From a virus, in the IMG/VR virus record IMGVR_UViG_3300049927_000079, positions 1 through 58,521 of that record: 58,521 nucleotides of DNA, one strand, 5' to 3'. Shown one piece after another: positions 12,188-56,287 of this stretch (positions are counted from its first letter, which is position 1; the number at the start of each line of letters is the position of its first letter). The position numbers and the translations under genes were made by a program. The notes below the pieces were generated by a model, which searched no databases, was not told where the DNA came from, and saw only the letters and a list, made by a program, of their open reading frames with translations.

Positions 12188-12201
12188 AAGGAATCCTCTC
12201 G

Positions 12202-12785: not shown

Positions 12786-12973
12786 GCAGCGGCAGCGGTA
12801 AAAGTCGCGGCCAGGAAACTCGTGACCGGCGCCGCGCTCTAGGGCTCTGCACCGCTTGCGGGGATAATCCACCGAGTAAAAACAGTTTGAAATGCTATCC
12901 ATGTCGGGTTCGATTATCGGGCTACAGCCGGGAGCGCTATGAGCACAGTCCTATTCGACGCCGCAAAACATGA
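12782..12973 (+). CDS. Basic small zinc-finger protein
   Basis: A 63-residue protein from GTG 12782 (GTGA overlap). L-C-T-A-C-G (about 29-34) and C-Y-P-C-R (46-50) form a four-cysteine zinc site flanked by R-D-R-R-R-A and R-Y-E-H-S-P-I-R-R-R-K. The net charge is strongly positive, suggesting DNA or RNA binding. It overlaps the start of the nuclease gene by 35 bases in another frame. Confidence 0.62.
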   Translation: MSSGSGKSRGQETRDRRRALGLCTACGDNPPSKNSLKCYPCRVRLSGYSRERYEHSPIRRRKT

Positions 12974-32485: not shown

Positions 32486-32884
32486 CTATTCCTCCCGGTA
32501 AAAAGAATGGTGTCCAATTTTGGCCGTTGCGGTCATTTGTTGCGCCCATGCGGGGATCGGGATTGAATCCGCAAAGTAGTGCGTGGCCCCGTTCGTAAGA
32601 TCAGAGTCTCCGCCCTGAAAGATTGAGTCCGCAACATCATAGCAGTCCACAAAAGGGGCATCTGGCGAGACAGGAACTTTAGCCAACTGCGGATCATTGG
32701 AGGCAGTCATGGAGGAAAACTGCCAAGGTTGATAGACGATTTCTGCCCATGACTTGTTGTGCTTCAGAGCTCGATTCTGAATCACATGCAGAACTGCACG
32801 GATACCGTCGCGCCCCTCCCCGCGAGCCTCGCGCCATGCACAGAGCGCAGCGCACCACTTTTGGAATTCGTTCCAGTTCATCAT
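32486..32884 (-). CDS. Endolysin, SleB-type cell-wall hydrolase
   Basis: A 132-residue protein (start at ATG 32884, or 32881). It matches the cell-wall hydrolase SleB family: A-A-L-C-A-W-R-E-A-R-G-E-G-R-D-G-I-R-A-V-L-H-V-I-Q-N-R, then Q-P-W-Q-F-S-S-M, then A-T-H-Y-F-A-D and P-A-W-A. The glutamate in W-R-E-A-R-G-E is the expected catalytic acid. It has no signal peptide, so it needs a holin to reach the peptidoglycan. It is coupled to the coiled-coil membrane protein upstream (ATGA), forming the lysis cassette. Confidence 0.85.
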   Translation of the reverse strand: MMNWNEFQKWCAALCAWREARGEGRDGIRAVLHVIQNRALKHNKSWAEIVYQPWQFSSMTASNDPQLAKVPVSPDAPFVDCYDVADSIFQGGDSDLTNGATHYFADSIPIPAWAQQMTATAKIGHHSFYREE

Positions 32885-33807: not shown

Positions 33808-36800
33808 TTACTGAACTCCCACGACAAGATGGCCACCTAAAACCAAAACTCCCCCGAGCGTAACTTTCACCGGACCCGGAGGAGGCGGAACCGGAATCGC
33901 TGTGCCCTGCAACGCAATCGTCTGCGGACTGTTTACCGTATTTGAGACCACCGAAATAGATCCGAGATGCACGTTGCTGATACAGCCTCCGGCGCTGTCA
34001 AACTGCCCACACAAGGTCGAAGGAGTAAAGGTAGCCTGCTCTGAGCAGAAGGCGCCAACTGCGAGCGTAGAGCCGCAGGCTCCGGTTACGGCAAAGTCCG
34101 CAGTCGTAGATGTCACCGCGAGCCCTGTGGCAGTCGCCGTGCCGTTGTTTGTGACAATGAATACCAAGGGATTGCTGGTTTTCCCTACCGTCTGGTTGCC
34201 GAAATCAATGCGCGAGATCCCGAGAACTATGTTTGGCGTCCCCGTGAAACCTGTGCAACTGAGGGTCGCGGTATCCGGACTGCTCGCAGCATTCGACGCG
34301 AATATCAGGGTCGCAGTCAGGAACCCTGTCGCCGTGGGTTGGCAGTTCACCGTAGCCGTGCAGGAATTGCCAGCCGTTACCGTCCCGCAGTTGTCGCTTT
34401 CAATGAACTGGGTTGGATTGGCGCCGCCAAAGGTTAGCGGAGTCGCGATCACCAGGTCCGCATTCCCGGTATTGGTCGCGGTGACAGTCAAGCCGGCCGA
34501 GGTTGTTCCCGTCTGAATGCTCGGCGGAGAGAAGGCCAGCGACGTTGGGGCCAGCGAGATCCGCGGCGTAGGCGCAGCCACTCCATTCACCGTCAATGTA
34601 AGGTTCTGCGGGCTGTCGGACGCATCATCCACCACATGAACGTTCGCCGTGCGTGCGCCAGTCCCGCCAGGTGTCACTGAGACATCCACGGGGCAGAAGG
34701 CACCAGGAGCGAGGGTCAACCCGCAGTGATTGACCAAGGTGTAATCCCCTGGGTTGGTTCCGGTCAGGGCGATGCTCGAAAGGTTCAGCGTTGCCGTGCC
34801 AGTGTTCTGGATCTGGCCACTGACCACTTTAGACAACACGCCTACCGTGACGTTCCCGAAATCAATCGAAGATGGAGTCAACGTAACCGCGGGCGCCGTC
34901 GCTACGCCTGTGCAACTCAGAGACACCGTGAGGGGAGAAATGCTTGTTCCGGTAAAGGGTTGCGTGAAGGTTCCAGACTGCGCGCCGGCAGCGATCGGAT
35001 TACAGCGAATGAAGTACTGACATTGCGCCTGGGGAGCAAGGTTTTGGTTGCAGGTTGGATTCCCGAAAATGAAGCTAAAATTTGGATCGTTGATGGTCGC
35101 TCCCCCGAGCGCCAAGGATGTATTCCCAGTGTTCTGCAGGGTCACCGCTTGGTTAGCGCTTACCTGCCCCACCGTGATGCTTCCGAAGGACAGGCTGGAC
35201 GGGGTAAGCGTGGCGCCGTCTTGTGTACCGAAGCCGGAGAGAGTTACGACATTTGGAGACGAAGCGGCGTTTGAAGCAATCGAAATATTTCCCGTAAGCG
35301 GACCAGCCGAGAGCGGCGCGAACTTGACGTTAATGGTGCAGGTAGATCCAACCGTGACCGTCCCGCAAGCGTTGGCCTGGGAGAAATTTCCGGTTGGAGT
35401 CACGCTCGAAACAACCAAGCTGGCCGTGCCGCAGTTGGTTACTACAACCGGCAGGCTGGCTGAAACCGAGTTTACCGGAGTGTTCGGGAAACTAAGGCTG
35501 GTCGCACTCAAGCAGACTGCCGGAGCGGTTGCTACTCCTGTCCCGGTAAGAGCCGCAGTCGATGGAGTCGTACTCGCGCTATTGACCAGCGTCAGAGTCG
35601 CCGCGCGCGCGCCAGTCGTGGTTGGCTTGAAGGCCGCGGGGATGATGCAATTCTGCCCACCCGGAAGCGGGTTGGCGCAACTGTTTGCCAAGAGAACGAA
35701 GTCTCCCGGATTGGCTCCGGCCAGTGAAAGCGTCCAGCGCATCGGGCCTGTGCCTGTATTCGACCAAGTGAAGTTGAACGGTGCGGTTTGTGTCCCAGAC
35801 ACTTGCGAGCCGAAATCATGGGATACAGGAGCAAGGCTGGCAATCGGAGCCGTGCCAGTGCCCGAGAGAGACGCCTGGTGCGGACTGCCCGTGGCGCTAT
35901 CTGCCATCGACAGCGCAGCAATCTTGAGGCCGATAGAAAGCGGGCTGAAGTACACCGGGATCGTGCAACTGGCGCCGGCAGCCAGCGTAGTGACTCCGGC
36001 CGGAGTGAAGGAGAAAGCCTTAACAAACTGCCAGCGCGTCCCATTCGTAGCCAAGCCACCAAACGCGGCATTGTTGGTGCCCCAGAGATTCATCATGGGG
36101 TTGGCAGGAGCAAACGGGATGTTCGTGCTGTGCGTCTGACTCAGCGTGCCATCAATCGAAAACGCTACCGAAGGCGCCGTCCACTTGAAGCCATAAACGT
36201 GGAACCCCAGTTCCGGGTTGGCCAGAGTAGCCGTGGTTGCAGTGTTCAGGGACGGAGTGCTCCAAGTTGTCCACTCGATCGTATTCGGTAGTCGCCCTTC
36301 AATCTCCGGCGAATCAATCTCCGTGTAGGGATTCGAGATGGAACTGTTCAGAATGAAGTCGGAAGAAACCTGTCCCGAGGGAACCGTGCCAGTCAAGTAA
36401 GGCGTGGTCGCCGTGGATGCAGAGCGCATCGACCAGCGATAACTTCCGAAACCGAAAGCTGTGGTCGATCGTACTTCCGCGCCCACCGAAATCGTAGGAG
36501 CCGCCCCGCTCTGGACTACCTTCAGTCCGAGCATCCCGTTCGACAAGTCCACATTCGAGGTCGAGAAGGTGCTTGTGTTCACGCCTCCGATATTTCCCGG
36601 AGCCGTCCCGGTATCTATCTGCCACTTGGAACTGAGGGCGCCCTGGTCGAAGTTGTCAGTGAATCCACTGGCTGCGGTCGCGCACTCGCCGGCAGTAAAG
36701 TCTCCGGGATTCGCTCCAATCAGCGACACTCCGGAAATTGTTACCGGCGAGGTTCCCGTGTTGGTCGCCGTCACGTTCGTAACTGGAGAGAAGTTACCTA

Positions 36801-39774
36801 CCAGAACATCGTTGAAGTTCACCGTGGACGGTGCGAGTTGAATGGTCCCAGGGACGGTCCCTGTACCTGTCAAGGTTGAGCCTACCGGCGCACCATTCGA
36901 GGCCACCGAAAGCGCAGAGGTCAAGAGGCCCGCTGCTGCTGGCTTGAAGAATGCATTGATGGTGCAGGACTGAGCCGGCGTTATCGTCCCGGTCGAAGGG
37001 CAGTTGTTCGACTGCGAATAGGCGGTTGGATTCGTGCCGCCAAGACTGATGGTGACTCCGGTCGAATTGATGCTTCCGCTCGCAGTGAGGGTGAAGGCTT
37101 GGCACAGGACCGATGTTCCTACCTGTTGATTCCCGCACGCCGCACTGGACGGACTAAGCGTCATGGCAGCCGCGCCGCCGACGCCGCTCATCGGAACTGT
37201 TTGTGGAGATCCGGGAGCGTTGTCAGTGAAACTCATATTGGCCGTGCGCGAGCCCGTAGCCGTTGGGCAGAACTTGGCGCTCTGCGTACAGGAAGATCCA
37301 GGTCCGAGTGAACCACCCCCCGCACCCGTCGCAGTGAAAGTGGAGAAGCCGTAGTCTGCTTGAGTATTCGCTCCCTGCAGGAACATACCCATTCCCGGAA
37401 AACCTGAAGCGAACGTTGTATCGGTAGCCGTGTTGACCTGGATGCCGTTTTTGAACACGGTGATAGTCGAGCCCGTGATTGACGCCTTGACTACATCTCC
37501 GTTGACTACCGCGCCTCCTACCGCCTTATTGGAGAGCATAGTGAAGCTGCCAAGCGGTCCATTCCAGCGAACAATTTGGGTGTAGGACTGACCCGGCCCA
37601 ACCGCAAAATTTATTTCGTAGCCCTTTATGCTGTGCGGAGCGATCGTAGTGCGAAGCCGTAGTTCCAGTTCCTCAAACGTCGATTGAACGTGTGAGACGG
37701 TGTGGACAGTTGCGGTAACCGTCTGGTCGTTATTCCATGATCCACCGACTACCGCGGTCGAGTCGTTCAGGGCGCCAGAACCAGTTTGCGTCCCGAAAGC
37801 AAGTCCGGGAGTTGTTCGGACGTTGGCCCAGTCGAGACCTGTCGTTCCACCATTGATCCAGTTCCCGCCTTCTGAAATCGGGTTCTCGGTAGCCGGGAAG
37901 TTGGTTGTGTAGGTGCGCGAAGCCAGCAGGCTAGGACAACTGCCAGTTCCGCCTACCGGAAAGTCCAAGGGGTTCGTGCCCGTGAAACCAAGGTTGGTAA
38001 TGGTCAAAGCCGTACTGCCCGTGTTGGTCAGCGTGGTTTGCTGGACTGCGCTGCAACTACCAGGTGCGATCGTACCAAAGTTGAGCACGGCAGGATTAAG
38101 ACTCACAGTGGAAGTACCGCCTGTCACCGTAAGAGCAACCTGGTGCGGCGAACCTACGGCATTGTCGGTCAAGGTCAGGAAAGCGCTACGCACTCCGCTT
38201 GCCGTGGGTTTGGCAGTTATGCTGAACGCGCAGCTAGCAGCAGCCGCAAGCGAGGCGGGACAGTTATTCGTCTGCGAGAAGTCTCCCAGGTTGGTTCCGG
38301 TGATTGCCTTGCCTGAAATAGTGAGTGCCGCATTCCCTGGATTAGACAGCGCGACTACGACCGGAGAGGACGACGTACTTACCGGGACCGTGCCGAAGTT
38401 GACCGATCCTGGACTGAAAGCCACGGCCGGAGCCAGTCCGCCTACGCATCCGCCCGCGAGACCTTCCATGCCAAGGGCCACGCACGGGTCTGCGATGTGG
38501 AAGTGTTGCAATACATTCAACCCGTTGACCAAACTAACGTTCGCCCACCATGCCGTGTTGTACTGTCTTGTACTGTGCGGAGCGGAAGGGTTAGGCCAAG
38601 TACCTACGCACGGTCCCCCAACACATGCTCCCCCTCCCGGCGCCCCTCCTCCTGTGCGGTCAGTGAAGGTGCAGGGCGCAATGCATTGTGCGTTCATAGC
38701 AGCCGAGAAATTGTTCGCTACGGTTTGGGCTCCTGGATAACCGTGCGTCTGCAGCCATGAGTAAGGCGTCTCGCTCTCAATGCTCGGCAGGGCTACTGCG
38801 TCTCCGTTCCCGGTTCCGCCAATGATGATGCCGTAGAGGGTCGCCGCACGGAGAATCGCGTACTGAATAATTCCAAGTTTAGCGATTCCAGGACAGGACG
38901 GTTGCACGGGATCGAAACAGTTGAGTTGCGGCGTAGTGTAATCGAGAAAGAACAAAGATCCGTTCGGAGGTCGGTTCACGTCAGTCGAGGCAGGGCTTGT
39001 TTTAGAAGTACAAAGTTGTCCCGGACTACCGCCGCCAGAACCGATAGGAAACACCGTGAAACCGGGGTAGCGCCCAGTAGGAACGCCGCTTCCGGAGCAC
39101 AGCGAGTAGCCGTACAGCGCATGATTGATTACTCCGGAAAGCAATTCCTGCAGGCGCATGATCGGGCCGAAGGGGGAAGTACCGCCCGTGATCGTTGAGC
39201 CAGTCTGGTAACCGGGTCCGGTATTCCACACATCCATGCCGCAATAACTGTTGCCGTTGTGCGTAAATGTTCCAGGTACAGCCGGGATCTGTCCTGCCCC
39301 GAAGGTATAGAACACCCAAAGTTTGCCAGTCACCTGATCGTAGAGGAGGAAATTGGAATCAGAATTTCCGCCTGTGAAGCCGTTGTATGGCAGGAGGGGC
39401 TGCATGTGGACGATTTGGCCGTTGAGCCCACTGGCATACGAGTTCCCGCTGCAACCTTGCACCGGCCACGTAGGATCACTGGCCTGTCCGAAGTAGAGCG
39501 GCCATGAACTGAAGTCGTCGCTCCCTGGCGTGTGGTACGGGCCTGTTTGAAAATTAGTAAAGTTGCCGGTGACGTTCTGGATCATTTGTGCCGACCCAGG
39601 CATCAGGTTGCCCAACGGCCCGCCCGCGCCGGCATTGGGCAGTTGATGGTTATAGAAGGCAGCCGGATAGGGTCGGTTACTGTTTGCCGGCTGGTTCAGG
39701 ATGTTGTAAGGCGGAGTTTGCGCGAGGGCGCCCGCAACCAGGAACAGGAGCGCGGAGATGAGTCTGCGAATCAA
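33808..39774 (-). CDS. Giant exported HYDIN-repeat protein with lectin-like and GH16-like domains
   Basis: A 1988-residue protein. The real start is TTG 39774, giving a Sec signal peptide I-R-R-L-I-S-A-L-L-F-L-V-A-G-A-L-A-Q; it has GAGG upstream and overlaps the previous stop (TTGA). Residues 20-445 are an unassigned exported domain. From about 446 come ten choice-of-anchor-D (HYDIN/ASH) Ig-like repeats with L-x-P-x-x-x-x-F-G-x-x-x-V-G openings. A LamG-like domain (about 618-813) and a GH16-like domain (about 1036-1258, catalytic-type E-I-D-S-P-E near 1149) are inserted in repeats 2 and 4. It could bind and cut beta-glucan or similar polymer at the cell surface. Confidence 0.75.
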   Translation of the reverse strand: MIRRLISALLFLVAGALAQTPPYNILNQPANSNRPYPAAFYNHQLPNAGAGGPLGNLMPGSAQMIQNVTGNFTNFQTGPYHTPGSDDFSSWPLYFGQASDPTWPVQGCSGNSYASGLNGQIVHMQPLLPYNGFTGGNSDSNFLLYDQVTGKLWVFYTFGAGQIPAVPGTFTHNGNSYCGMDVWNTGPGYQTGSTITGGTSPFGPIMRLQELLSGVINHALYGYSLCSGSGVPTGRYPGFTVFPIGSGGGSPGQLCTSKTSPASTDVNRPPNGSLFFLDYTTPQLNCFDPVQPSCPGIAKLGIIQYAILRAATLYGIIIGGTGNGDAVALPSIESETPYSWLQTHGYPGAQTVANNFSAAMNAQCIAPCTFTDRTGGGAPGGGACVGGPCVGTWPNPSAPHSTRQYNTAWWANVSLVNGLNVLQHFHIADPCVALGMEGLAGGCVGGLAPAVAFSPGSVNFGTVPVSTSSSPVVVALSNPGNAALTISGKAITGTNLGDFSQTNNCPASLAAAASCAFSITAKPTASGVRSAFLTLTDNAVGSPHQVALTVTGGTSTVSLNPAVLNFGTIAPGSCSAVQQTTLTNTGSTALTITNLGFTGTNPLDFPVGGTGSCPSLLASRTYTTNFPATENPISEGGNWINGGTTGLDWANVRTTPGLAFGTQTGSGALNDSTAVVGGSWNNDQTVTATVHTVSHVQSTFEELELRLRTTIAPHSIKGYEINFAVGPGQSYTQIVRWNGPLGSFTMLSNKAVGGAVVNGDVVKASITGSTITVFKNGIQVNTATDTTFASGFPGMGMFLQGANTQADYGFSTFTATGAGGGSLGPGSSCTQSAKFCPTATGSRTANMSFTDNAPGSPQTVPMSGVGGAAAMTLSPSSAACGNQQVGTSVLCQAFTLTASGSINSTGVTISLGGTNPTAYSQSNNCPSTGTITPAQSCTINAFFKPAAAGLLTSALSVASNGAPVGSTLTGTGTVPGTIQLAPSTVNFNDVLVGNFSPVTNVTATNTGTSPVTISGVSLIGANPGDFTAGECATAASGFTDNFDQGALSSKWQIDTGTAPGNIGGVNTSTFSTSNVDLSNGMLGLKVVQSGAAPTISVGAEVRSTTAFGFGSYRWSMRSASTATTPYLTGTVPSGQVSSDFILNSSISNPYTEIDSPEIEGRLPNTIEWTTWSTPSLNTATTATLANPELGFHVYGFKWTAPSVAFSIDGTLSQTHSTNIPFAPANPMMNLWGTNNAAFGGLATNGTRWQFVKAFSFTPAGVTTLAAGASCTIPVYFSPLSIGLKIAALSMADSATGSPHQASLSGTGTAPIASLAPVSHDFGSQVSGTQTAPFNFTWSNTGTGPMRWTLSLAGANPGDFVLLANSCANPLPGGQNCIIPAAFKPTTTGARAATLTLVNSASTTPSTAALTGTGVATAPAVCLSATSLSFPNTPVNSVSASLPVVVTNCGTASLVVSSVTPTGNFSQANACGTVTVGSTCTINVKFAPLSAGPLTGNISIASNAASSPNVVTLSGFGTQDGATLTPSSLSFGSITVGQVSANQAVTLQNTGNTSLALGGATINDPNFSFIFGNPTCNQNLAPQAQCQYFIRCNPIAAGAQSGTFTQPFTGTSISPLTVSLSCTGVATAPAVTLTPSSIDFGNVTVGVLSKVVSGQIQNTGTATLNLSSIALTGTNPGDYTLVNHCGLTLAPGAFCPVDVSVTPGGTGARTANVHVVDDASDSPQNLTLTVNGVAAPTPRISLAPTSLAFSPPSIQTGTTSAGLTVTATNTGNADLVIATPLTFGGANPTQFIESDNCGTVTAGNSCTATVNCQPTATGFLTATLIFASNAASSPDTATLSCTGFTGTPNIVLGISRIDFGNQTVGKTSNPLVFIVTNNGTATATGLAVTSTTADFAVTGACGSTLAVGAFCSEQATFTPSTLCGQFDSAGGCISNVHLGSISVVSNTVNSPQTIALQGTAIPVPPPPGPVKVTLGGVLVLGGHLVVGVQ

Positions 39775-40505
39775 TACAGATTCCTCGCATGACGCACTGC
39801 AGAAGAAACAAATGGCGCCACTCCGAAAGCAATCGTGGAGTATCCAGGGGCAGCGCTCCCGGTTTTGGTCGTACCTGCCGTATAGGTGCCGGGCGGTAAA
39901 TTGATCCGGTCTGCGATGTTGAGGCAAGCACCATGATTGTTGAATTCAATTGTGAACCCTGAAGCTGGCGTCTCCCCGCTGCACGTCACCACTCCGCTGT
40001 CACCGCTCATGCTGATAATGAGATCATTTGACCCGCTTGTGGTGACTTGGCTGGTAAATGGACTATTGCCCTGGTTCCCCGTATCTACACCAGTTAAGTC
40101 CTGGCCGTACTCACCTACCCAAAGGAATACTGGAGTGCTCCCGCCAGCAGATAAATTGAACGTGTCAGAACCAGAAAACGCTCCTGTGCTTGAGTAAAAC
40201 AGCACGCCTGCCCATGAAGCAAAAGAGATGGAATAAGACTGGCCAATGCCGACTCCGGTGTTACATCCACTCGTAATGCAGCCTGGGAGTGGTGCCTGTG
40301 AAAAAGAATTGCCGGGAGTATCGGTATAGCTCAGGGTATGCGAGTCGCCGCTCACGAAACCTACAGCAACTACTAAATGATGAGCGCTAACCGTGAGAGT
40401 GCAGGAAGTTGTTCCGCCGCTATTGGTATTTGTGCATTGCTGAACCGGAACCGCTGCAGACACGGGTAGCGCGAACAGGGCGAGAATGAATAAGAGTCGT
40501 CGCAT
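39771..40505 (-). CDS. Exported protein, paralogue of the 42232 product
   Basis: A 244-residue protein from ATG 40505 (TGATG overlap). It has a clear signal peptide (R-R-L-L-F-I-L-A-L-F-A-L-P-V-S-A-A) and a beta-rich Ser/Thr/Gly body with several cysteines: Q-C-T-N-T-N-S-G-G-T-T-S-C-T-L-T-V, V-V-A-V-G-F, S-G-S-D-T-F-N-L. The overall plan (C...C near the start, V-V-A-V/I, F-S-G, S-x-S-x-L-x-I) is shared with the gene at 42232, so the two look like diverged copies. Probably an extracellular adhesin-like protein. Confidence 0.62.
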   Translation of the reverse strand: MRRLLFILALFALPVSAAVPVQQCTNTNSGGTTSCTLTVSAHHLVVAVGFVSGDSHTLSYTDTPGNSFSQAPLPGCITSGCNTGVGIGQSYSISFASWAGVLFYSSTGAFSGSDTFNLSAGGSTPVFLWVGEYGQDLTGVDTGNQGNSPFTSQVTTSGSNDLIISMSGDSGVVTCSGETPASGFTIEFNNHGACLNIADRINLPPGTYTAGTTKTGSAAPGYSTIAFGVAPFVSSAVRHARNLY

Positions 40506-42238
40506 CAATTTACCGTGAAATTTACTTGAACCGAGAACCTCTTGGCTACTCCGCCCGCTGTCCCTGATACGGTCTCAATGTAATCCCCAACCGCGATCGC
40601 AGTGTTCTGCAAGGTTGCCGAGCAAGTCGTGAACGTGTCCAGGCCCGCCGTGGCTCCTGTCTTGGAACACGCTGGCGCGCCCGAGGCTGCCGTTGCAAGC
40701 GCACCTGAAACCAGGTTGGTGACGGTGAAGTTGGACGCGCAAGGACTGCCGGTGCAATGACGGATGGCAACAATCACGTTCGGCGTCCCTGCATCTGCGG
40801 TTACGTCAATCTCGTTAACCGTGGCTGCGTAGGCTACTTGGCACTGCTCTTTCTGTGGGCCTATGTCTGTATCCGTCAGGGCGGAACTGGCATTCTCCGC
40901 ACCAAAGACCAGCGCGCAAGTACGTCGCAGACTTGACCCAGACGGCCCTGCGGCAGTTTTCCATAAAGTTACGATGTGCGTGGCATCCGTAACGGTATCA
41001 ATCGTAAGAACTTGACCGGCCGTGCCAGGGACGCCTGGTATTGAGGTTCCGAAGCTGGTTGGAACGGAGGTCGGAGCGTACCAGTAAGCCGTGGTGAGTT
41101 GACTTAGAGTGGGGACTGCACTTTGGCCGAAACCAATGAAGCCCGCGCTTGAACCGGCAAGCGTGACGCTGATGCCGTTGACATTACCGCCGCCATCGGT
41201 CGTAAAGGACGGGTCGCAGGTGACCACGTTCCCCGTCGCAGCGTAGTACGCGATGGCACCCACCGTAGAGCAAGGGGAGACGGTTCCGGTTCCGCCCGAG
41301 GCTTGTGGCGCAACTACGTCAGGAAGGCCGATGCGGATAACCGCATTCGTTGCGGCGCCAGAGTTGACCGATTGCACGCGCGCTATGTTTTGTACCGCAA
41401 CCGGCTCGGTCGCTCCGGCATCGTGGCACTGAGATCCAGAACCAAGCACCACGTAGTCGTTTATCCCAGTTTGATTATCAAAGGTACAGGAGATGGGGCC
41501 TTGCACGGCGACCGAGACCGTACCCGTCGTTCCGGCGCCGGCATCCGCGACACCTAAGAGATTGTTGGCATCGGTCGGTTGTGCATTTCTGGCCTGCAGT
41601 GAAGAGTTGAGACTGACAAGAAGGAATTGCGTGGTGCCGGGAGAACTGGAATTTGCGTAATCAAACTCAAGCGGCGCTTGTACTAGATCCAAGCCGAGTG
41701 GCCATGCGGCCGGGACGATTCCAGTTGCGACACCTTCTGAATTTCCTACCGTGGTCGCAGTGATGAACTTAGCTACGCGGTTTACCGTTCCCGATCCACC
41801 CCCGCCTCCGCCGCCCGCGCCTGTACCTTCGCAGACGTCGGTTAACGTTCGGTTGTACGGCATCGGTACACTCCCGCTCGACATCGTGATGTCGTAGCAG
41901 GCGCCTTGCGCGACGAAGAAAGTAAGACTCCCGTCCACGTTCGCGACAAAAGGATTCACTGAAGGCGTAGGCGTAGGGTTGTTGTCTGAGAAAATATTCG
42001 CCTTGACCAGGGTGCCGGTGTTATAGACGGTCACTATACAACCGGGGAAGGACGCTTGAACTCCGGCGCCAGCGTTGACGTTCGTGGTCCCAATCTGCTG
42101 CGTAGCGGTCGAAGGTAGGCCCGAGGTCAAGGCTTGCTCCCCTCCGATTTGACAATCGCCGTTCACGCCGGCAAGGGTCTGCCCGAAGGCTGGAGCACAA
42201 CACAGAGCGAGAATGAGGACAAGTTTTCTCGTTACCAT
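40505..42238 (-). CDS. Exported fibre-like protein
   Basis: A 577-residue protein from ATG 42238, with signal peptide V-T-R-K-L-V-L-I-L-A-L-C-C-A-P-A-F-G-Q. The mature protein is Gly/Thr/Ala-rich with repeated beta-strand patterns, including a G-G-G-G-G-G-S-G-T-V-N-R-V-A-K-F linker (about 202) of the kind seen in tail fibres, and A-P-L-E-F-D-Y-A-N-S. The last 150 residues have C-T-G-S-P-C-A-S-N-F and similar pairs. It resembles a phage tail fibre except that it carries a Sec signal. It overlaps the upstream stop by seven bases. Confidence 0.6.
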   Translation of the reverse strand: MVTRKLVLILALCCAPAFGQTLAGVNGDCQIGGEQALTSGLPSTATQQIGTTNVNAGAGVQASFPGCIVTVYNTGTLVKANIFSDNNPTPTPSVNPFVANVDGSLTFFVAQGACYDITMSSGSVPMPYNRTLTDVCEGTGAGGGGGGGSGTVNRVAKFITATTVGNSEGVATGIVPAAWPLGLDLVQAPLEFDYANSSSPGTTQFLLVSLNSSLQARNAQPTDANNLLGVADAGAGTTGTVSVAVQGPISCTFDNQTGINDYVVLGSGSQCHDAGATEPVAVQNIARVQSVNSGAATNAVIRIGLPDVVAPQASGGTGTVSPCSTVGAIAYYAATGNVVTCDPSFTTDGGGNVNGISVTLAGSSAGFIGFGQSAVPTLSQLTTAYWYAPTSVPTSFGTSIPGVPGTAGQVLTIDTVTDATHIVTLWKTAAGPSGSSLRRTCALVFGAENASSALTDTDIGPQKEQCQVAYAATVNEIDVTADAGTPNVIVAIRHCTGSPCASNFTVTNLVSGALATAASGAPACSKTGATAGLDTFTTCSATLQNTAIAVGDYIETVSGTAGGVAKRFSVQVNFTVN

Positions 42239-42933
42239 ACTCCGCTTCCTTTTCGCGTGGGCACTTGTGGAGGGACGATTGGCTTGAAAGTTGCCATTAC
42301 TGCCTCCGGCAATGGTGATCCCGATTGTGTCCAAGAGGGATTCACGGCACCGATCGGCGTTTTGACCAGATAAGCCATGTAACAAGTCGTAGTGGTTCCT
42401 GAGTTAAGGATTCCAACGGGAGTAGAGAATCCGGAATCTATAGTCGGAACACTCGCAGTTTGCGAGCCGAATGCACTTACAAAAAGCTCGTTATTGAAAG
42501 ACGGCGTGAGGCTCCCTGGTTGAATCGGAGAACTACCGCTTGACCCGCTTTGACCTTCAAAGGCTGATGACGGCAATGTTCCAGAGAAGGCCATTGCCGC
42601 CATACCTGCGAATGAACTAGAGGTTGCCGTGGTAAACGTGTGCGAGGCTCCAACGGTTCCGGGAATACTGTAAAACATGCGAGTGTGCGTATTGGTGTGA
42701 ACCTGTTCTGTGAGCGCAGTCCAGGAATTACTTTTTGAATCTGTTGGAACAGCCGGCGTTTTTTGAAATTCCGAAATGGCTACGACCAACAGAGTCGCAC
42801 CTGTCGTATCCATGACTGCCGTGGTACAGCCATTTGTCCCTCCGCATGTTTGGGGCGTTCCCACCAGGGCAGGTACACCCCAAGCAAAACTAGAGAGTGC
42901 GAGCACGAATGCGAAAATGAGCGCCTGTCTCAT
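42232..42933 (-). CDS. Exported protein, paralogue of the 39771 product
   Basis: A 233-residue protein from ATG 42933 (ATGA overlap). Signal peptide R-Q-A-L-I-F-A-F-V-L-A-L-S-S-F-A-W-G, then P-Q-T-C-G-G-T-N-G-C-T-T-A-V, L-L-V-V-A-I-S-E-F, G-A-S-H-T-F-T-T-A-T, N-N-E-L-F-V-S-A-F-G. It shares domain order and several motifs with the product of 39771. Function unknown; presumably periplasmic or cell-surface. Confidence 0.62.
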   Translation of the reverse strand: MRQALIFAFVLALSSFAWGVPALVGTPQTCGGTNGCTTAVMDTTGATLLVVAISEFQKTPAVPTDSKSNSWTALTEQVHTNTHTRMFYSIPGTVGASHTFTTATSSSFAGMAAMAFSGTLPSSAFEGQSGSSGSSPIQPGSLTPSFNNELFVSAFGSQTASVPTIDSGFSTPVGILNSGTTTTCYMAYLVKTPIGAVNPSWTQSGSPLPEAVMATFKPIVPPQVPTRKGSGVW

Positions 42934-43802
42934 TGGGTTAGGCTTATAAACCAGCCGGTCTGCTTGCTTGTCCCATCTGCAATAAATGTGAATTTGATTA
43001 CGTCGCCGTTCGCGATCGTAGTAGTCGAACTTAGGGTTCCTGGCGCTCCGCCCGCCGCCGCGGTACAGGTCACCGGAGTCGGACTCAGCAGCGCTGTGCC
43101 GGCGCCGTTGGTGGCACTTAAACTACTGGTTCCGGCATTGTCAGTGAAGCACCCGAGGCGGGTAATCGTCCACGTCACTCCGGAATTGTTGTAGCAGTTG
43201 GTCTGAAGATAGGTGCCCGCTGCCATCGCGTTCAAGCCATCCCCGAGACCGGGATAGCAGCGCAAGATGCTGTACTGTGCCGCCAACTGGGTAGCTGTGA
43301 CCGTGTTGGCAGTCATGTCCGCGCCTACGACCGCACCATAGGTAGGGTCGCCGGCAGCAGCACCGTGCAGCACTGTAGTTGAGGTCCCCAGGCTTGCCAA
43401 GACGGACGGGCACACGCCCGCGCCGCCACCTAGCACAATCGCGTGTTGAGTCAAGGTGCCGGAAGAGGCCCACGTCGCCGCCCCGGTGAAGCACACAATT
43501 CCGCCAGATGTTCCCGCCACAGTGAGCGCGGGGGTAGTCGTCGGATTAGCTACAGAAATCAGTCCGCCCGTGAACGAAACACTGCTAACCGTTCCCCCGC
43601 CACTGCCAGCCACCTTAGTCCATGTCCCGCTTACGCACGTGTAGAGGTCTCCTGTGGTGAGAAGAACTTGTAGATGCTGGCCCTGAGAGCACGTCCCGGA
43701 GGGTGCCGAGGTTACGTAATCCACAAACCCCGGACCCACCACTTGCGCGGGCAGGACGCGCGGCAGAAGAAGCAAAAGAATAAGCAGGGCCGACCACCGC
43801 AT
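42930..43802 (-). CDS. Exported fibre-like protein with shared N-terminal module
   Basis: A 290-residue protein from ATG 43802. After a signal peptide (R-W-S-A-L-L-I-L-L-L-L-L-P-R-V-L-P-A-Q) comes V-V-G-P-G-F-V-D-Y-V-T-S-A-P-S-G-T-C, nearly identical to the same region of the 43850 product. The remainder is Gly/Thr/Ser-rich with G-G-G-T-V-S-S-V-S and a C-terminal beta-domain ending F-I-A-D-G-T-S-K-Q-T-G-W. The shared module after the signal peptide may be an anchoring or assembly domain. Confidence 0.62.
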   Translation of the reverse strand: MRWSALLILLLLLPRVLPAQVVGPGFVDYVTSAPSGTCSQGQHLQVLLTTGDLYTCVSGTWTKVAGSGGGTVSSVSFTGGLISVANPTTTPALTVAGTSGGIVCFTGAATWASSGTLTQHAIVLGGGAGVCPSVLASLGTSTTVLHGAAAGDPTYGAVVGADMTANTVTATQLAAQYSILRCYPGLGDGLNAMAAGTYLQTNCYNNSGVTWTITRLGCFTDNAGTSSLSATNGAGTALLSPTPVTCTAAAGGAPGTLSSTTTIANGDVIKFTFIADGTSKQTGWFISLTQ

Positions 43803-43849
43803 TAGTTTAGAGCCTCCTACGATAAATTGCTGCAAGGTCATGTCATTGC

Positions 43850-45484
43850 CTACGGAGAGGTTGCAGCTTCTACCACAAATCGTTGCAGCGTCATGCTGTT
43901 TCCGGCAGTGCTAGCTGAGCAGAAAAGAATTGGCTGAACCACCAGCGTGCCATTCGTGACAAGATTTACCGGCTGGACAACGAATCCTGAAAGCGGTGTT
44001 TTGAAGGGTGTAAAGGCGGTTGTACTCGTGCCTTGCGCCAGGTCCAGAAAAGTATAAACGGCGGCGCTGCCAGATGCAGCCGCTGATCCTTGCATCTCAA
44101 ACGTTACTTCCATCGGAATATTGGTCATGCTTATCGAAGGAGCGGCTGCGGCTGCGGTATATACGTTTGCTCCACCCACACTCAACTGGAAACCGAAGCT
44201 CGGAGGCGAGCTGGAACTGGTAAGAGAGAATCCGAGCGTAATTTTCAACACCTTCTTTGTCGCCAGGTAATTCGCCGGGATAGTGTAGGTAGTTGCGAAA
44301 TTAGCCGTAGTATTATTCGGGCATGACACTGTGTCCGTGTTTGCTACTGAGGACGTTACGATGCCCCACAGACCCGCCGTGATAGCAGGAAATGTCTGAG
44401 TGGTCGAGTCGGTACCCGCAAGCGTTAGAGAGTTATTGATCGTCGCGGTTTTACCATCCGCCACCGTCAGGGTCGAGCTTGTGGCTGGCGCGGTAATCGC
44501 CATCTTGTTGATAGAGCTAGCCGTCGCCACGCCCAAAGTAGGAGTAGTGAAGGATGGCGATACCAGCGGAGCCAAGGAAGCCAGCGCCGTACCGGAGTCT
44601 TGGATAGCTTGGCTGCCCGCTCCAGTAATTACATTGCCCGATGTGTTGGAACTGGCTTGTGTCACCAGGCTGGCTGGGGCGATAGAAAACTTCGCGTAGG
44701 TGAGAGCGCTCCCCGCAGGACCGATTGAAGTCACCTGGGAGGTCAGCAGCCAAGAAGTGGTGGTGTTCGCCGTGCCCGATTGCACCGGGACTGTGCCGGT
44801 GTTGTTTACATCCGATGGCGTATCATAATCGATTGCTCTGGTAAAGACAGGGCTAACGCCCAGAGCGCCTACAATGGTGGCAAAGTAAACTCCATTCTGC
44901 GTTCCATCGGCCTGGTTCTTGAGCAGGACGCGTTGGCCGATGGTGTTGATAGCAATTCCGTCTAAGGTGAAAGATCCCGTAGCCGTCACGGTGAAAAAGT
45001 CTCCGATGCCCGCGCCGACTGCAGTGTAGGCGCCGACCACATTGGCGGTCGAGGCGGCAAGAACCGCTACAGCAGGATTGACTCCTGCGATTGCATTCGC
45101 CACAGCCAGGTCGGTGTAGGCGGTAGTAGAGAGTAGGGTTGAATTATTGTTCTGACTCTGAGTAGCTGCGGTTGCCGAACCAGGGAAAGCGAACGTGCTC
45201 GAAATCGAGAGTACTGGCGTCGTTGTGCCCGTAGCCACATTGATCTGATTGGCCGTACCTGTAACCGAAGTAACCGTACCGCCGCCGCCTGCACCAACCT
45301 GCGCCCACGTCCCAGACTGGCAGGTGTAGATAAATCCGCTGCCGAGAACGTTCTGCTGGTGAGCGCCTTGCGTGCAGGTTCCAGATGGGGCGGAAGTAAC
45401 ATAATCCACAAAACCAGCACCTACTACTTGCGCGGTGGCAAGACTTGTCCAAAATAAGACGATGAATATGAGTTTGCGAATCAT
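43850..45484 (-). CDS. Exported tail-fibre-like protein
   Basis: A 544-residue protein from ATG 45484. Signal peptide I-R-K-L-I-F-I-V-L-F-W-T-S-L-A-T-A-Q, then V-V-G-A-G-F-V-D-Y-V-T-S-A-P-S-G-T-C as in the 42930 product. Residues about 170-275 match a module of phage tail fibres: F-T-L-D-G-I-A-I-N-T-I-G-Q-R-V-L-L-K-N-Q, G-T-Q-N-G-V-Y, then F-T-R-A-I-D-Y-D-T-P. The C-terminal 150 residues form a beta-domain. A tail-fibre module fused to a cleavable export signal is unusual. Confidence 0.65.
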   Translation of the reverse strand: MIRKLIFIVLFWTSLATAQVVGAGFVDYVTSAPSGTCTQGAHQQNVLGSGFIYTCQSGTWAQVGAGGGGTVTSVTGTANQINVATGTTTPVLSISSTFAFPGSATAATQSQNNNSTLLSTTAYTDLAVANAIAGVNPAVAVLAASTANVVGAYTAVGAGIGDFFTVTATGSFTLDGIAINTIGQRVLLKNQADGTQNGVYFATIVGALGVSPVFTRAIDYDTPSDVNNTGTVPVQSGTANTTTSWLLTSQVTSIGPAGSALTYAKFSIAPASLVTQASSNTSGNVITGAGSQAIQDSGTALASLAPLVSPSFTTPTLGVATASSINKMAITAPATSSTLTVADGKTATINNSLTLAGTDSTTQTFPAITAGLWGIVTSSVANTDTVSCPNNTTANFATTYTIPANYLATKKVLKITLGFSLTSSSSPPSFGFQLSVGGANVYTAAAAAPSISMTNIPMEVTFEMQGSAAASGSAAVYTFLDLAQGTSTTAFTPFKTPLSGFVVQPVNLVTNGTLVVQPILFCSASTAGNSMTLQRFVVEAATSP

Positions 45485-45495: not shown

Positions 45496-45924
45496 CTAGC
45501 GTGTCACCAGAACATTCGTATAGACACTGTTAGTGAGCGTCTTGATATTGACCCGGATGAACTTGGCCCATAGCCAGGGCAATTCAATCCGGCCCGCGCG
45601 CCCCGTAGTGCTTACCAACGTGAGTCCTGTGGTGTCGCAGTACATCGCATCGGTATCGATGTCGGAGGTCTGCGCATCAACCTCAAACGCTCCGGGGTTT
45701 GCTGCGGCTTGGTTGACGTCGGTAAAGAAGATTTGCAGGGAGCATCCGAACGGATAGAAGTACGACATCTTGATCCGTTCCAACTGGACCGCGATACTCG
45801 CATTCCCCGCGGCGATGAGTTGCTGTTGAAAAAGCCATTGCGAAGAGTTCGCCCGAAGCAGGCTTGCTAATCCGGCGCCTGGGTAAATCCCCGGTGAAAC
45901 TGGTGGCAGCGCTCCTAGCGGCAT
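45496..45924 (-). CDS. Virion structural protein
   Basis: A 142-residue protein whose ATG directly follows the TAA of the adaptor gene in the same frame. It reads Y-P-G-A-G-L-A-S-L-L-R-A-N-S-S-Q-W-L-F-Q-Q-Q-L, then M-S-Y-F-Y-P-F-G-C-S-L-Q-I-F-F, then R-I-E-L-P-W-L-W-A-K-F-I-R-V-N-I. No named family. By position, a tail or neck component. Confidence 0.58.
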   Translation of the reverse strand: MPLGALPPVSPGIYPGAGLASLLRANSSQWLFQQQLIAAGNASIAVQLERIKMSYFYPFGCSLQIFFTDVNQAAANPGAFEVDAQTSDIDTDAMYCDTTGLTLVSTTGRAGRIELPWLWAKFIRVNIKTLTNSVYTNVLVTR

Positions 45925-46923
45925 TTAGAACCTCCCAATATTCAACTGTCCATTGACTGTGGCGAACGGCTCACCGTTGTTGTACATATCCGGACGGTAC
46001 TTAGAGAAATAGAGTGAGACGAGATCACTGTCTCGATCCTTGACCGGCTTGATGGTCAACTTGAACTGCTCGCGCGCTTCCTGAATGATGAACTTCCAGT
46101 CCGCACCCTGCCCGCGTTGCATATCCTCGCCCTTATTCGCCTCTTTGAACATGCCCGCCACTTCTTTCGCGCGCCATACAACCGGACTCTCGGTAAGTGG
46201 GTAGGGCAAGGTGTCGTTCGGGTTCTGCAGGAGCGGACCCATGCGAAGGTACTGGTAGGTGTAAGGCAACACGCTCAAAGGGTGCGGCCACAATTCGTAC
46301 AGCATATTTCCAAACGTTGCGCTATTGGGGCGCTGGTCCTGCTCGAACGGAACAAAGTAGTTCGGGTCATCGAAGATGGTTCGCTCCGCATCCTCGACTG
46401 CGAGATCCTTCTGACTCTTGCTCCAATAATCCATCGGCCAGTCGTTCGTAGTATCCCGCGCCGACAGGAATCGCTTGAAATCCGGAACCGGGACGGGAAA
46501 GTATGCCTGGTAGATCATGTAGGTCGCAGTTGCGTTGGTCGGTTCCATCCACGGGCGGTCGAGAGTAAGTATCCCGGTCACGGGATTGATAGCGATGATG
46601 TTGTACAGCGAGTAGAACGGGCTGCGGAATTGAAGCTGCGTAAACAGCGGCATCCCGGTATAGGCCAGCCATGCGTTCTTAGCCGCGAGACTGGGCGCTA
46701 CCAAGGGAGAAAATGCCGTGACTGCAACCGTCCCTACGCTGGTTCCCGGCCCGCTAGGGAACAACAGTCCAGGAGTAAGCCAGCCCGAGGTCTTGAGTTG
46801 CCACGACCACATCTGCGAGCCGTAGATGAGTTCGAGAGCGCGGTTCAGGTACTTCTTCGCTTGCGACGAGGCTATCCCAGGGATTTCGAGCAGCATTTCC
46901 TGGATCATCGTGTTGAGCGACAT
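45925..46923 (-). CDS. Head-tail adaptor / tail-tube A-like protein
   Basis: A 332-residue protein. The start, L-N-T-M-I-Q-E-M-L-L-E-I-P-G-I-A-S-S-Q-A-K-K-Y-L-N-R-A-L-E-L-I-Y-G-S-Q-M-W-S-W, has the helical pattern of podovirus adaptor (tail tubular A-type) proteins that dock onto the portal. The body includes Y-L-R-M-G-P-L-L-Q-N and W-K-F-I-I-Q-E-A-R-E-Q-F. It lies just past the predicted terminator of the capsid module. Confidence 0.62.
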   Translation of the reverse strand: MSLNTMIQEMLLEIPGIASSQAKKYLNRALELIYGSQMWSWQLKTSGWLTPGLLFPSGPGTSVGTVAVTAFSPLVAPSLAAKNAWLAYTGMPLFTQLQFRSPFYSLYNIIAINPVTGILTLDRPWMEPTNATATYMIYQAYFPVPVPDFKRFLSARDTTNDWPMDYWSKSQKDLAVEDAERTIFDDPNYFVPFEQDQRPNSATFGNMLYELWPHPLSVLPYTYQYLRMGPLLQNPNDTLPYPLTESPVVWRAKEVAGMFKEANKGEDMQRGQGADWKFIIQEAREQFKLTIKPVKDRDSDLVSLYFSKYRPDMYNNGEPFATVNGQLNIGRF

Positions 46924-48032: not shown

Positions 48033-49364
48033 CTACGCGCTGAATCCGAGAAGCACCTGGTTGTGTCGCGGCATCACGTTATACAGATTGGTGCCGAGAC
48101 GCATAAACAGTGCATCCATCGAAACGTTGTTAGGCATCGGTGCCCTGCGGAGCCCGAAGTTCCAACCCTTCTTGTCAGTCGGCCTCAACTTGAAGCTTCC
48201 GGATTCCAGGAAGTAGAGTACTTCGCCCACGGTGCAAGTCGCGTTCGAGGGGAAGTTGCTCCCGGTCGGAGAGGTAGCCACATTCGAGGTCACACCACCT
48301 ACCGTCTGGGTGTACTGCGGAGTCACCAGCGTTCCAGTCTGCGTGCTCGAACCTGCGCCGTCCTGCAAGTTGTTATTCCCAGACTTGCCGGCTGCCGGAG
48401 CGAGTGACAGGAAATCTCCCGCGAGTGCAGAGGGGGCGAGCGGGTCGGGATAGATCTCCATGCCATTGAACGTGACACCGTAGTAGCCGACATCGAATTT
48501 CTTCATATCGGTATTGCGGCGCTGTGCGTCGAGAGCGTTGACCACGGCAGTAAAGCCAAACACGTTGGTGATGCCCATATCTGGCTTGCCGCCCGTGACT
48601 ACAGCCTGCGCCCATCCGCGGGTAAGGGCATTGACGTCAATCTGTCCAGTCCCATTGGTCGCGAGTGCAGCAGCAGTCGCGCCGGCAGTGGTTCCGCCAA
48701 GGTACAGCGGAGTCGAATTGAGTGCTGGCCCGATAACCCCATTGCGAGTATCTCCCCCGTAAGTGGAGTAAATGTTCCCGAACGGCGACGGGTCGATACC
48801 GTTGTTCAGTCCTTCGTCGAGCCCGTTCGTATTCAGGATGCGGTTGTCTGAGATCCCCGTACCGGCCGGTTGACCGTGACGGAAACTGTCCATCTCGATC
48901 ATGGTATTCAGAGTCATGGTCATGTTTTCCATGAGAATCTGATACTGGTTCGCGATCATGGCAGGACCGGAGTTTACGACTCCGCCCGTACCGCTACCGT
49001 CATCCAGTTCCCAGTCGTCTAGGGGAACCCAGGTCGCGTAGGCTTTCGGCAGGAACTTCATGCCGGTATTGGTCTGCTGGCGAGTGACCGTGACGGTCGA
49101 ACCCGGAGCAAGAGCGGCGCCCTGCACGCGCCCGTAGATGAAGCCCTCGAACATTCCCGAGCCACCCAGGAACGGATCGAGTACGCCGGCCGCGCGCAAT
49201 TTAGCTTGGAACGGTGTATCGACAAAAAGGTTATCGAACACAACGTTCTTTCTTACTGATTCTAAATTAGTTGCGTCGATTTCCGAGTAGAGAGGGTCCG
49301 TGAGGAACGCGAAATTTAACTGGAACAGCCTCGCCAGCGTCAACAGCAGGAACTTGATAAGCAT
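48033..49364 (-). CDS. Major capsid protein
   Basis: A 443-residue protein with AGGAGAGG before ATG 49364. Reading starts with a hydrophobic segment (L-I-K-F-L-L-L-T-L-A-R-L-F) and goes on to F-D-N-L-F-V-D-T-P-F-Q-A-K-L-R-A-A-G-V-L-D-P-F, K-A-Y-A-T-W-V-P-L-D-D-W-E-L, M-E-N-M-T-M-T-L-N-T-M-I-E-M-D and the end R-L-G-T-N-L-Y-N-V-M-P-R-H-N-Q-V-L-L-G-F. Size, position after a scaffold-like gene and the mixed fold fit an HK97-like coat protein. The hydrophobic N-terminus is odd for a coat protein and may be removed or be the scaffold-contact helix. Confidence 0.75.
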   Translation of the reverse strand: MLIKFLLLTLARLFQLNFAFLTDPLYSEIDATNLESVRKNVVFDNLFVDTPFQAKLRAAGVLDPFLGGSGMFEGFIYGRVQGAALAPGSTVTVTRQQTNTGMKFLPKAYATWVPLDDWELDDGSGTGGVVNSGPAMIANQYQILMENMTMTLNTMIEMDSFRHGQPAGTGISDNRILNTNGLDEGLNNGIDPSPFGNIYSTYGGDTRNGVIGPALNSTPLYLGGTTAGATAAALATNGTGQIDVNALTRGWAQAVVTGGKPDMGITNVFGFTAVVNALDAQRRNTDMKKFDVGYYGVTFNGMEIYPDPLAPSALAGDFLSLAPAAGKSGNNNLQDGAGSSTQTGTLVTPQYTQTVGGVTSNVATSPTGSNFPSNATCTVGEVLYFLESGSFKLRPTDKKGWNFGLRRAPMPNNVSMDALFMRLGTNLYNVMPRHNQVLLGFSA

Positions 49365-54148: not shown

Positions 54149-56287
54149 TCAGTCCCCCACTGACATGAGGGGAATCGTAGCATACGACCTGTCGATTTCG
54201 GGAAGCCTTTGTGTGGGAGGGCTGTATCGTTTGGTTGATCGTGCGGCAAGTTCGTCTAAGTGGTGGCGAGTCCAGTAGGAGTGGGCGGCTGCAAGTACGC
54301 GGTCATCGTGCTTTCCCGCCTGGTGCTCGACTCTCGACTTACCCTTTTTCAGTTTGCGTTCAAGCGAAGCCAACTCTTCAATCAGGAATTTCGATTGCGG
54401 CTGATACCAGCCATCTTTCACGGCATCGACAAAGCGGGTGATAATCTGGCCGCGCGACCAGGGCCGCATGTAGATACCTTCCTTGTGGCCGCGGTTTTCC
54501 TTGATAACTTTCGAGTCGTAAGGGATGTCGGTGTGGTGATAGTTGAATCCCATCAGTTTCAGTTGCAACTGGCAATCGTCTCCCGGCCGTTCGCGTTGCT
54601 CGATGGCAAACTTGCAACCGCGAGTGTCGATGGTATTGATTCCGTACCAGGCTGCAAGGCAAGCTGCGAATCCTACTGCCTGGGGTGCATTGATTCGGCG
54701 GGAGGCGAGTTCAAACACTTGCACGTCGCAGTTTTCGCCTCTCATGCTCCTGGTTCCCGAAAGTACGGTCGAGTCCTCATCTTCCTGGTTCAGTCCGTCC
54801 GCGGTGTCGATGCCGATGGAGTAATCTTCCGGCTCCCCGTAGTGTCCCGGCCGGCGATTGGGCTCCTCGAAGATGAGCACCTTGTCGAAAGAGTGGCGCT
54901 CGTCCTCTTCATTGAACGGCTTGAGTGGAATCATAATCCACTCAAAATGCTGCTTCTTGTGCGAGTTCCACGAAACCCGGATACGTTCCTTGTTGTAGTC
55001 AATCTCGTTTTCGTCGGGCTCGAAGCCGTCATCAATCGAGTCTCCGGTAACCGCGTAAGCCGTGTAGTTCCGAGTTCTCCCGTCGCGGGCGCCGTCGATT
55101 ACGATGGTGTCAAACACCAGATCGTTCGCACCCTGCAGCGCTTCGTAGTCGTCGGCCGGCATCTGCGAGAACCATACTTTCTGGGTGTGGGTGTCTACGG
55201 ATTCAAGGTAGTTAAACTCCCAGAACCACTGCTGCTCGACCGGCATTCGCCAGTCTTTCCCAACAACTCGCGCCAGGTAGTCAGTGTCCCGTATGAATAA
55301 TTCGCAACGCAGGACGTGCTTCCGGGTGGCTTCGAGAGGCTTGAATCCAGCCGGGACGGGATGTTTTCTAATCCAGTCGGGTTCAGGATATAGGTCAGGC
55401 GCCATAGGCCAGTTGATAAAGAATGGGAAGAATCGAGACTTCCCCAAGGGCCATCCCGCTTTACTGGAACGCCACTTATCAGCCTGCCATCCTGTGTTTC
55501 CATTTCCCGTTCCCTCCAACACGAAGTAGAGTTTGCGCGATGAGTGCGTGGCACGGAGCAGTCCTTCCTCGATCGTTTTCTTGGGATTCGGGATGTCTCC
55601 GATTTCAGAGACGTGGACACAAGTCGGAGTCCAGCCTTGCGCGATGCCCGTAGCCTGGTGACCAGACTGCACAGAGAGAATCGAGCCGTTGATAAACCCG
55701 ATCATCTTTATACGGTCGGTGGTGCGCGCCGGAATCAGCCACCAAGGGAGACGGGCGATGCAGGTTTCGATGATGCGCGTAATGAGTTCGGATTTCTCGT
55801 CGTTGACCGAGCCCATGACCGCCTGGGTGTGCGGCAGAAACAACATCCGGTGCAGGAACTTCAGCGCCGTCTTAGTGGTGACTCCCAGTTGCCGCGCTTT
55901 CAGGATAAGAAGTTCGATTGAGACCTGTTGCTCGTCAAAATCCGCGAGTATGTTGTCATAGACTTCTTGCGACTTGCGGTTGCGGAACTTGAAAATGTCG
56001 CCTTTTTCATCGCACACCCAGGCATAGCGCGACTCAAAGTAAGCCGAGTCGAACATGCAGAGCACTTGCTCATTCTCGACCCATCGGCGGATCTCTTTCG
56101 CGCGATTGGCGGAGATTTCTTTTTTCAGGTCGTAGTAGTTGTTCCGGCCCTTGGAGTCATGGGCAATGATGGAATTGACGTAGGCCTTAAACTCTTCAAT
56201 CTGCTCTACCGTGTGGTAGTACGGCATCCACTTTTCGCGGGCGGCGAAGAGTTCGAGGTTCTGGACTATGATCTTTTCACTATACAA
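54149..56287 (-). CDS. terL: Terminase large subunit
   Basis: A 712-residue protein. The start at TTG 56287 overlaps the upstream stop by eight bases and lacks a good ribosome site, so an internal start is possible. The ATPase part has L-I-L-K-A-R-Q-L-G-V-T-T (Walker A-like, about 127-138) and V-S-E-I-G-D-I (Walker B-like); the nuclease part has Y-S-I-G-I-D-T-A-D-G and G-K-H-D-D-R-V-L-A-A-A. It packages DNA into the head through the portal. It is longer than typical terminases, with about 100 extra N-terminal residues. Confidence 0.85.
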   Translation of the reverse strand: MYSEKIIVQNLELFAAREKWMPYYHTVEQIEEFKAYVNSIIAHDSKGRNNYYDLKKEISANRAKEIRRWVENEQVLCMFDSAYFESRYAWVCDEKGDIFKFRNRKSQEVYDNILADFDEQQVSIELLILKARQLGVTTKTALKFLHRMLFLPHTQAVMGSVNDEKSELITRIIETCIARLPWWLIPARTTDRIKMIGFINGSILSVQSGHQATGIAQGWTPTCVHVSEIGDIPNPKKTIEEGLLRATHSSRKLYFVLEGTGNGNTGWQADKWRSSKAGWPLGKSRFFPFFINWPMAPDLYPEPDWIRKHPVPAGFKPLEATRKHVLRCELFIRDTDYLARVVGKDWRMPVEQQWFWEFNYLESVDTHTQKVWFSQMPADDYEALQGANDLVFDTIVIDGARDGRTRNYTAYAVTGDSIDDGFEPDENEIDYNKERIRVSWNSHKKQHFEWIMIPLKPFNEEDERHSFDKVLIFEEPNRRPGHYGEPEDYSIGIDTADGLNQEDEDSTVLSGTRSMRGENCDVQVFELASRRINAPQAVGFAACLAAWYGINTIDTRGCKFAIEQRERPGDDCQLQLKLMGFNYHHTDIPYDSKVIKENRGHKEGIYMRPWSRGQIITRFVDAVKDGWYQPQSKFLIEELASLERKLKKGKSRVEHQAGKHDDRVLAAAHSYWTRHHLDELAARSTKRYSPPTQRLPEIDRSYATIPLMSVGD

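Follow-up and report, generated by a model that had tools for sequence, protein, structure and literature searches.

The DNA analysed here, called the window below, is a stretch of 58,521 nucleotides from a podovirus-type phage (IMG/VR record IMGVR_UViG_3300049927_000079). It contains a leftward block of six consecutive genes (33808-45484), flanked by capsid and tail genes on one side and a lysis cassette on the other, whose products SP1 to SP6 all begin with secretion signal peptides, and the fourth of which carries a domain matching the virion anchor of podovirus tailspikes. Gene starts were picked by a simple caller, which improved on the raw list of open reading frames; the long upstream TTG starts of the genes at 33808 and 40505 were dropped for starts that fit ribosome sites and signals. 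Numbers such as L003 denote the viral contigs and phages with which the window was compared. The block comprises the following features.

43850..45484, minus strand: SP1, 544 amino acids (aa), ATG start; signal peptide (residues 1-18), short N-terminal domain with a cysteine pair, and phage fibre modules
42930..43802, minus strand: SP2, 290 aa, ATG start with the Shine-Dalgarno sequence TAGGAGG; signal peptide (1-19), SP1-type N-terminal domain and fibre-like body; 8 cysteines in the mature part
42232..42933, minus strand: SP3, 233 aa, ATG start; signal peptide and a small beta-rich domain, related to SP5
40505..42238, minus strand: SP4, 577 aa, ATG start; signal peptide (about 1-19), tailspike-type head-binding domain (about 20-140) and variable body; 14 cysteines in the mature part
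41816..42181, minus strand: head-binding domain of SP4, with the cysteine pair GDC / FPGC and a second pair GAC / DVC
39771..40505, minus strand: SP5, 244 aa, ATG start; signal peptide and a small beta-rich domain; 6 cysteines in the mature part
33808..39774, minus strand: SP6, 1988 aa, TTG start with GAGGA upstream; signal peptide, N-terminal region of no recognised family, then ASH/HYDIN-type immunoglobulin-like repeats with cysteine pairs and a predicted glycoside hydrolase family 16 (GH16) glucanase domain; 44 cysteines in the mature part

A rule-based caller and visual inspection agree that all six N-termini follow the Sec/signal peptidase I pattern, with a positively charged n-region, a short h-region, and small residues at positions -3 and -1. 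With the cleavage site marked by a slash, they read MIRKLIFIVLFWTSLATA/QVV (SP1), MRWSALLILLLLLPRVLPA/QVV (SP2), MRQALIFAFVLALSSFAWG/ (SP3, cut after VPA), MVTRKLVLILALCCAPAFG/QTL (SP4), MRRLLFILALFALPVSA/AVP (SP5), and MIRRLISALLFLVAGALA/QTP (SP6). These are classic n-h-c signals with h-regions of 9-13 residues and, mostly, A-x-A/Q ends. A preliminary description of the window had reported six consecutive leftward genes with Sec signals and had named rejection of most of them by a signal predictor as the outcome that would count against it; the rule-based caller accepts every one. It flags 8 of the roughly 65 genes in the window, namely the six in a row and two distant small genes (670-975 and 1009-1356). 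Because its background is low (2 calls among 676 residue-shuffled N-termini and 3 among 236 genes of unrelated contigs that carry fibres), chance can be ruled out as the origin of the run. Conservation is lower in the signal segments than over the first 60 mature residues (mean identity 0.26 versus 0.46; lower in 638 of 698 pairs), and the pattern is kept while the letters vary, so the conserved part of these proteins begins at the cleavage site. As for the two distant genes, the product of 1009-1356 (minus strand) resembles a lone exported fibronectin-III-like domain without cysteines, and 670-975 (minus strand) encodes a second small signal-peptide protein.

The cysteine content points in the same direction as the signals. 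Cysteine accounts for 79 of 3766 residues in the mature block versus 20 of 5410 in the other virion genes (p=5e-15). Even counts are expected if all cysteines are paired in disulfides, and across the lineage of phages that share this capsid (see below) even counts outnumber odd ones by 73 to 14 among 87 complete mature signal-bearing proteins, versus 183 to 174 among signal-less proteins. When homology clusters with at least four cysteines are compared, the count is even in 41 of 43 signal-bearing versus 45 of 70 signal-less clusters. The SP6 ASH repeats hold cysteine pairs (e.g., CGTVTVGSTC) that are missing at the same motif in the ASH-repeat "hydrolases" (phrog_18474) of phage Skulduggery and Erwinia phage phiEaP8, which resemble SP6 in repeat architecture but have no signal peptide. 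Together with the covariation of a cysteine pair with the signal, described below, the even counts strongly support, at the level of sequence, true export of the block proteins. Their disulfide bonding, and thus folding in an oxidising compartment, is likewise well supported as a prediction. A member of the disulfide-forming VKOR family occurs in an Acidobacteriaceae metagenome-assembled genome (MAG) that holds one of the capsid relatives, as well as in 20 of 60 genomes from the same phylum, so at least some members of the phylum have the means to form disulfides.

By profile and predicted fold, the first mature domain of SP4 matches the head-binding domain by which podovirus tailspikes dock on the virion. 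The N-terminal profile of SP4 hits the solved tail spikes of the cyanophages Pan3 (9vyg, E=1.9e-6) and Pam1 (head-binding domain 7eeq, E=0.003). An AlphaFold model (predicted local distance difference test score [pLDDT] 75; residues 14-40 poor) retrieves 9vyg, 7eeq, and the P22 head-binding structures among its top Foldseek matches with probabilities of 0.92-1.00, the likeness to P22 resting on fold. In a signal-less homologue (L016), the same domain is joined to a pectate-lyase body, as in a tail spike. SP4 homologues range from 186 to 1556 aa and mostly have only their first 135-165 residues in common; the body of SP4 itself matches no Pfam family. A conserved N terminus followed by a variable C terminus is the pattern of virion-anchored receptor-binding proteins with exchangeable bodies. 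Nevertheless, SP4 is a variant podovirus tailspike and not a plain member of the class, because it has a signal peptide in addition to the head-binding domain. P22 gp9 has the domain without a signal, and SP4 further differs in the disulfide-type cysteine pair within it. The same N-terminal domain also opens the NPF-domain tail spikes of phages ep3 (Escherichia coli), MTx (Serratia), Vid5 (Pantoea), and KT1 (Pseudomonas), which have neither signal peptide nor cysteine pair; in MTx, Vid5, and KT1, it begins at residue 1.

Signal and cysteines vary together within this one domain. A scan of viral contigs found the first mature domain of SP4 at 54 loci, and the capsid family is shared by 37 of the 38 searched records that have the domain; the exception, L031, came from a different scan. 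Some of the homologues bear signals, whereas others start directly at the docking domain. Both cysteines (in GxC and FPxC) are present in 41 of 41 versions called as signal-bearing, and they are missing as a pair in 15 of 16 called as signal-less. By eye, the sole exception (L094) does have a signal peptide, one with a long n-region, which escaped the caller; with L094 reassigned, the pair is present in all 42 signal-bearing versions and in none of the 15 signal-less ones. On the capsid tree, the signal state changes seven times, five of them on starred branches, and the cysteine pair shifts in the same direction every time; a sign test on the five pairs gives p=0.06, which is the floor of that test. 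One phage (L062:8932-11061 and the next gene) encodes a signal-bearing and a signal-less head-binding-domain protein side by side.

The statement in the preliminary description that several of the proteins are fibre-like holds for SP1 (fibre modules), SP4 (head-binding domain), and SP6 (ASH repeats and GH16), while SP3 and SP5, both small and rich in beta structure, match no known family. SP1 and SP2 have in common a small N-terminal domain with a cysteine pair (QVVGAGFVDYV..SGTC..YTC). The domain of SP1 has no match among cultured phages, and its AlphaFold model (pLDDT 47) is unusable; the fibre modules behind it occur in many phages. SP3 and SP5 are related to one another at 30% identity, and their alignment is too divergent for scanning. 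Among its ASH repeats, SP6 carries what is predicted to be a lichenase-type GH16 glucanase domain (PF00722, E=6e-12; lichenase chains, E of about 1e-9), with EIDSPE at residue 1152 as the catalytic-motif (ExDx(x)E) sequence. The SP6 counterpart on the contig of L003 has an additional beta-helix. Viral scans with SP5, the SP6 N terminus, and a fibre protein of phage Tunturi_4 returned no full-length relatives.

The position of the block is conserved. As the preliminary description had it, the signal-bearing genes lie between tail and lysis genes: on one side are the capsid and tail genes, and on the other is the endolysin. Profile matches place the markers of the window at 54149-56287 (terminase), 48033-49364 (major capsid protein), and 32486-32884 (endolysin). 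The flanking features are as follows.

48033..49364, minus strand: major capsid protein, used as lineage marker
45925..46923, minus strand: counterpart by position of the Tunturi_1 gp11 "tail protein"; no profile match, 0 cysteines, no signal peptide
45496..45924, minus strand: small gene directly upstream of the block, conserved in close relatives; product begins MPLGALPPVSPGIYPGAG and is, from position and conservation, a possible tail or adaptor component
32486..32884, minus strand: endolysin (Hydrolase_2) just beyond the block, marking the lysis cassette

In relatives by capsid, the shared position of the block is after the tail gene and the small conserved gene. Consecutive signal-bearing genes are found there in L005 and L116 (six), L003 and L117 (five), the distant L054 (five), and L060 (four), and L004, L006, L008, and L009 have the same block, shorter or cut by contig ends. 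The capsid lineage also includes a contig (L053) in the Acidobacteriaceae MAG and, found via the terminase, the cultured podoviruses Tunturi_1 and Tunturi_2 of Tunturiibacter (Acidobacteriota). These two are remote from the window (29% identity in the capsid alignment), but they resemble it in capsid lineage, position, and the row of signal-bearing spike and fibre genes; the C-terminal bodies differ (PMC11924767). Between tail gp11 and endolysin gp21 of Tunturi_1, clear signals open gp12, gp13, gp14 (annotated as tail spike), gp16, and gp17, and a weaker one opens gp15. The term "signal peptide" does not appear in the paper that describes them (PMC11924767). A search of the lysis-gene family found no relatives.

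The search for the same block in other phages that the preliminary description had proposed shows that it is not confined to the window: the arrangement recurs in the capsid relatives and in Tunturi_1 and Tunturi_2, and three such genes occur in the unrelated siphovirus Tunturi_4. The fibre cluster of Tunturi_4 (L052:30076-37324) encodes three signal-peptide proteins with even numbers of mature cysteines throughout (12, 8, and 20); its gp111 is deposited with a start (80433) downstream of the signal, which the annotation probably omits. L031, which lacks this capsid, has five consecutive signal-peptide genes (127, 1343, 82, 200, and 582 aa) in its structural region (8937-15980), with few cysteines, and is possibly an independent case. 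A need for signals imposed by the host was ruled out, as Tunturi_3, which grows on the same strain as Tunturi_1, has signal-less fibre genes. Sampled phages of other hosts (P22, crAss001, and Flavobacterium 11b) have no signals on their spikes or fibres, and no report of Sec-exported tail spikes was found in the literature searched (open-licence papers only).

Elsewhere in the window, the chosen start of the capsid gene gives a hydrophobic N-terminal extension, MLIKFLLLTLARLFQLNFAFLTDPLYSEID, also seen in L003, L005, L018, and L019, whereas the capsid of L007, L010, and L016 begins MADPLYNEI without it; this may be a true extension or an overlapping small gene. A phosphoadenosine phosphosulfate reductase-like gene (56280-57026, minus strand) adjoins the terminase, and a galactosyl/glycosyltransferase-like gene on the early strand (20088-20804, plus strand) overlaps the end of the late operon.

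We consider it probable that the block encodes an adhesion and depolymerase apparatus that is exported by Sec, cleaved, oxidised in the periplasm, and docked via SP4 on virions at lysis. The block proteins would be made as precursors whose signals are cut by signal peptidase I, and the mature proteins would fold and form disulfides in the periplasm. There, the SP4 anchor spike, the SP1 and SP2 fibres, the small proteins SP3 and SP5, and the SP6 GH16 enzyme may associate. Heads with short tails would meanwhile be built in the cytoplasm without spikes. Once the inner membrane and wall have been breached by holin and endolysin, virions would encounter mature spikes in the periplasm or the lysate, and docking of the SP4 head-binding domain on the tail would be the last assembly step. 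What we infer is that the signals are cleaved, that the proteins reside in the periplasm and form a complex there, and that docking follows export. P22 tailspikes attach to spikeless heads in vitro. The long tail fibres of T4 attach late, to fibreless particles (PMC3004832). The supports for this reading are the signals, the even and paired cysteines, their covariation with the signal, the head-binding domain, and the conserved synteny. We also lean, with slightly less assurance, towards the broader view that Sec export, periplasmic disulfides, and addition at lysis have come and gone several times within a single podovirus lineage, with a probable independent origin elsewhere (Tunturi_4 and L031).

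Several observations weigh against these proposals. A recognised docking domain is present in SP4 only, and the virion may lack SP1, SP2, SP3, SP5, and SP6. The Foldseek E-values for the SP4 model are modest (best 1.7e-3, none below 0.001). The capsid tree is not a spike tree, and spike genes may be exchanged, such that the independence of the switches is overstated; a short and weakly resolved tree of the domain itself, with the cysteine columns removed, gives five signal changes, at least three of which are forced by starred branches. Finally, we found no precedent for docking after export in a tailed phage.

The strongest rival is that the proteins are exported but have no place in the virion. 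They would be glycanases and adhesins, either soluble or held at the surface, that are set free at lysis or earlier and strip polysaccharide, coat neighbouring cells, or block superinfection. Export looks real, the GH16 domain of SP6 and the beta-helix added in a relative's counterpart would suit such enzymes, and substrates of the type II secretion system have no linear signal, making onward secretion possible. Yet the first mature domain of SP4 remains a virion-docking domain, its homologues without a signal, from the same capsid lineage, are tailspikes that can occupy the same locus (L010 versus L011 and L015), and the six C termini, by inspection, share no sorting domain; we regard this explanation as unlikely, if deserving of serious attention. 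The preliminary description had offered two explanations, assembly after export and a role on the infected cell, which would display the proteins or remodel its surface. No evidence for surface display was found, and we favour assembly after export because SP4 has a docking domain, its signal-less versions are tailspikes, and a conserved N terminus is combined with a variable C terminus.

Other explanations fare worse. Cellular proteins commonly contain ASH repeats and GH16 domains, which would fit secreted host genes recently captured into the late operon as morons without a role in assembly. However, among 396 genomes of the phylum to which the Acidobacteriaceae MAG belongs, the head-binding domain was detected in a single one, and that match is the phage contig itself. 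The SP6 N-terminal region had one marginal match in 297 genomes of the phylum, and synteny of the block extends over a deep phage lineage and to a cultured phage, so that capture of this kind seems very improbable. Still harder to credit is retention of the hydrophobic N-termini as tail-anchoring or membrane-piercing elements used in infection. They do lie where spikes attach to the virion, but their classic n-h-c pattern with short h-regions and mostly A-x-A/Q ends, the onset of conservation at the cleavage site, the even cysteine counts that imply an oxidising compartment, and the signal-less homologues that open directly with the docking domain all argue for Sec signals. Just as implausible is export for disulfide formation only, followed by an active return to assembly before lysis. 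The strong pairing of cysteines does show that oxidation matters, but we know of no route by which folded proteins return to the cytoplasm, and meeting the virions at lysis is the simpler route.

In tailed phages, the cytoplasm is regarded as the place where spikes and fibres are produced and joined to the particle. Filamentous phages export their coat proteins, which are part of the virion, through the host Sec system ahead of assembly, but they assemble at the membrane and exit without lysis, whereas the phages with this block are tailed and have lysis genes. A group of soil phages, some with known Acidobacteriota hosts, has secretion signals on a whole set of spikes and fibres; these parts would leave the cytoplasm and become disulfide-linked before they are added to the particle, a route unreported for tailed phages in the literature searched. 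The signal/cysteine rule provides a genome-based means of finding such phages, and Tunturi_1 and Tunturi_2 with Tunturiibacter are cultured phage-host pairs in which the proposal is directly testable. If it is true, assembly in these phages would be split over two compartments, lysis would be part of maturation, and the phages would gain disulfide-stabilised adhesins; free spikes in the periplasm could also meet the virions of other phages.

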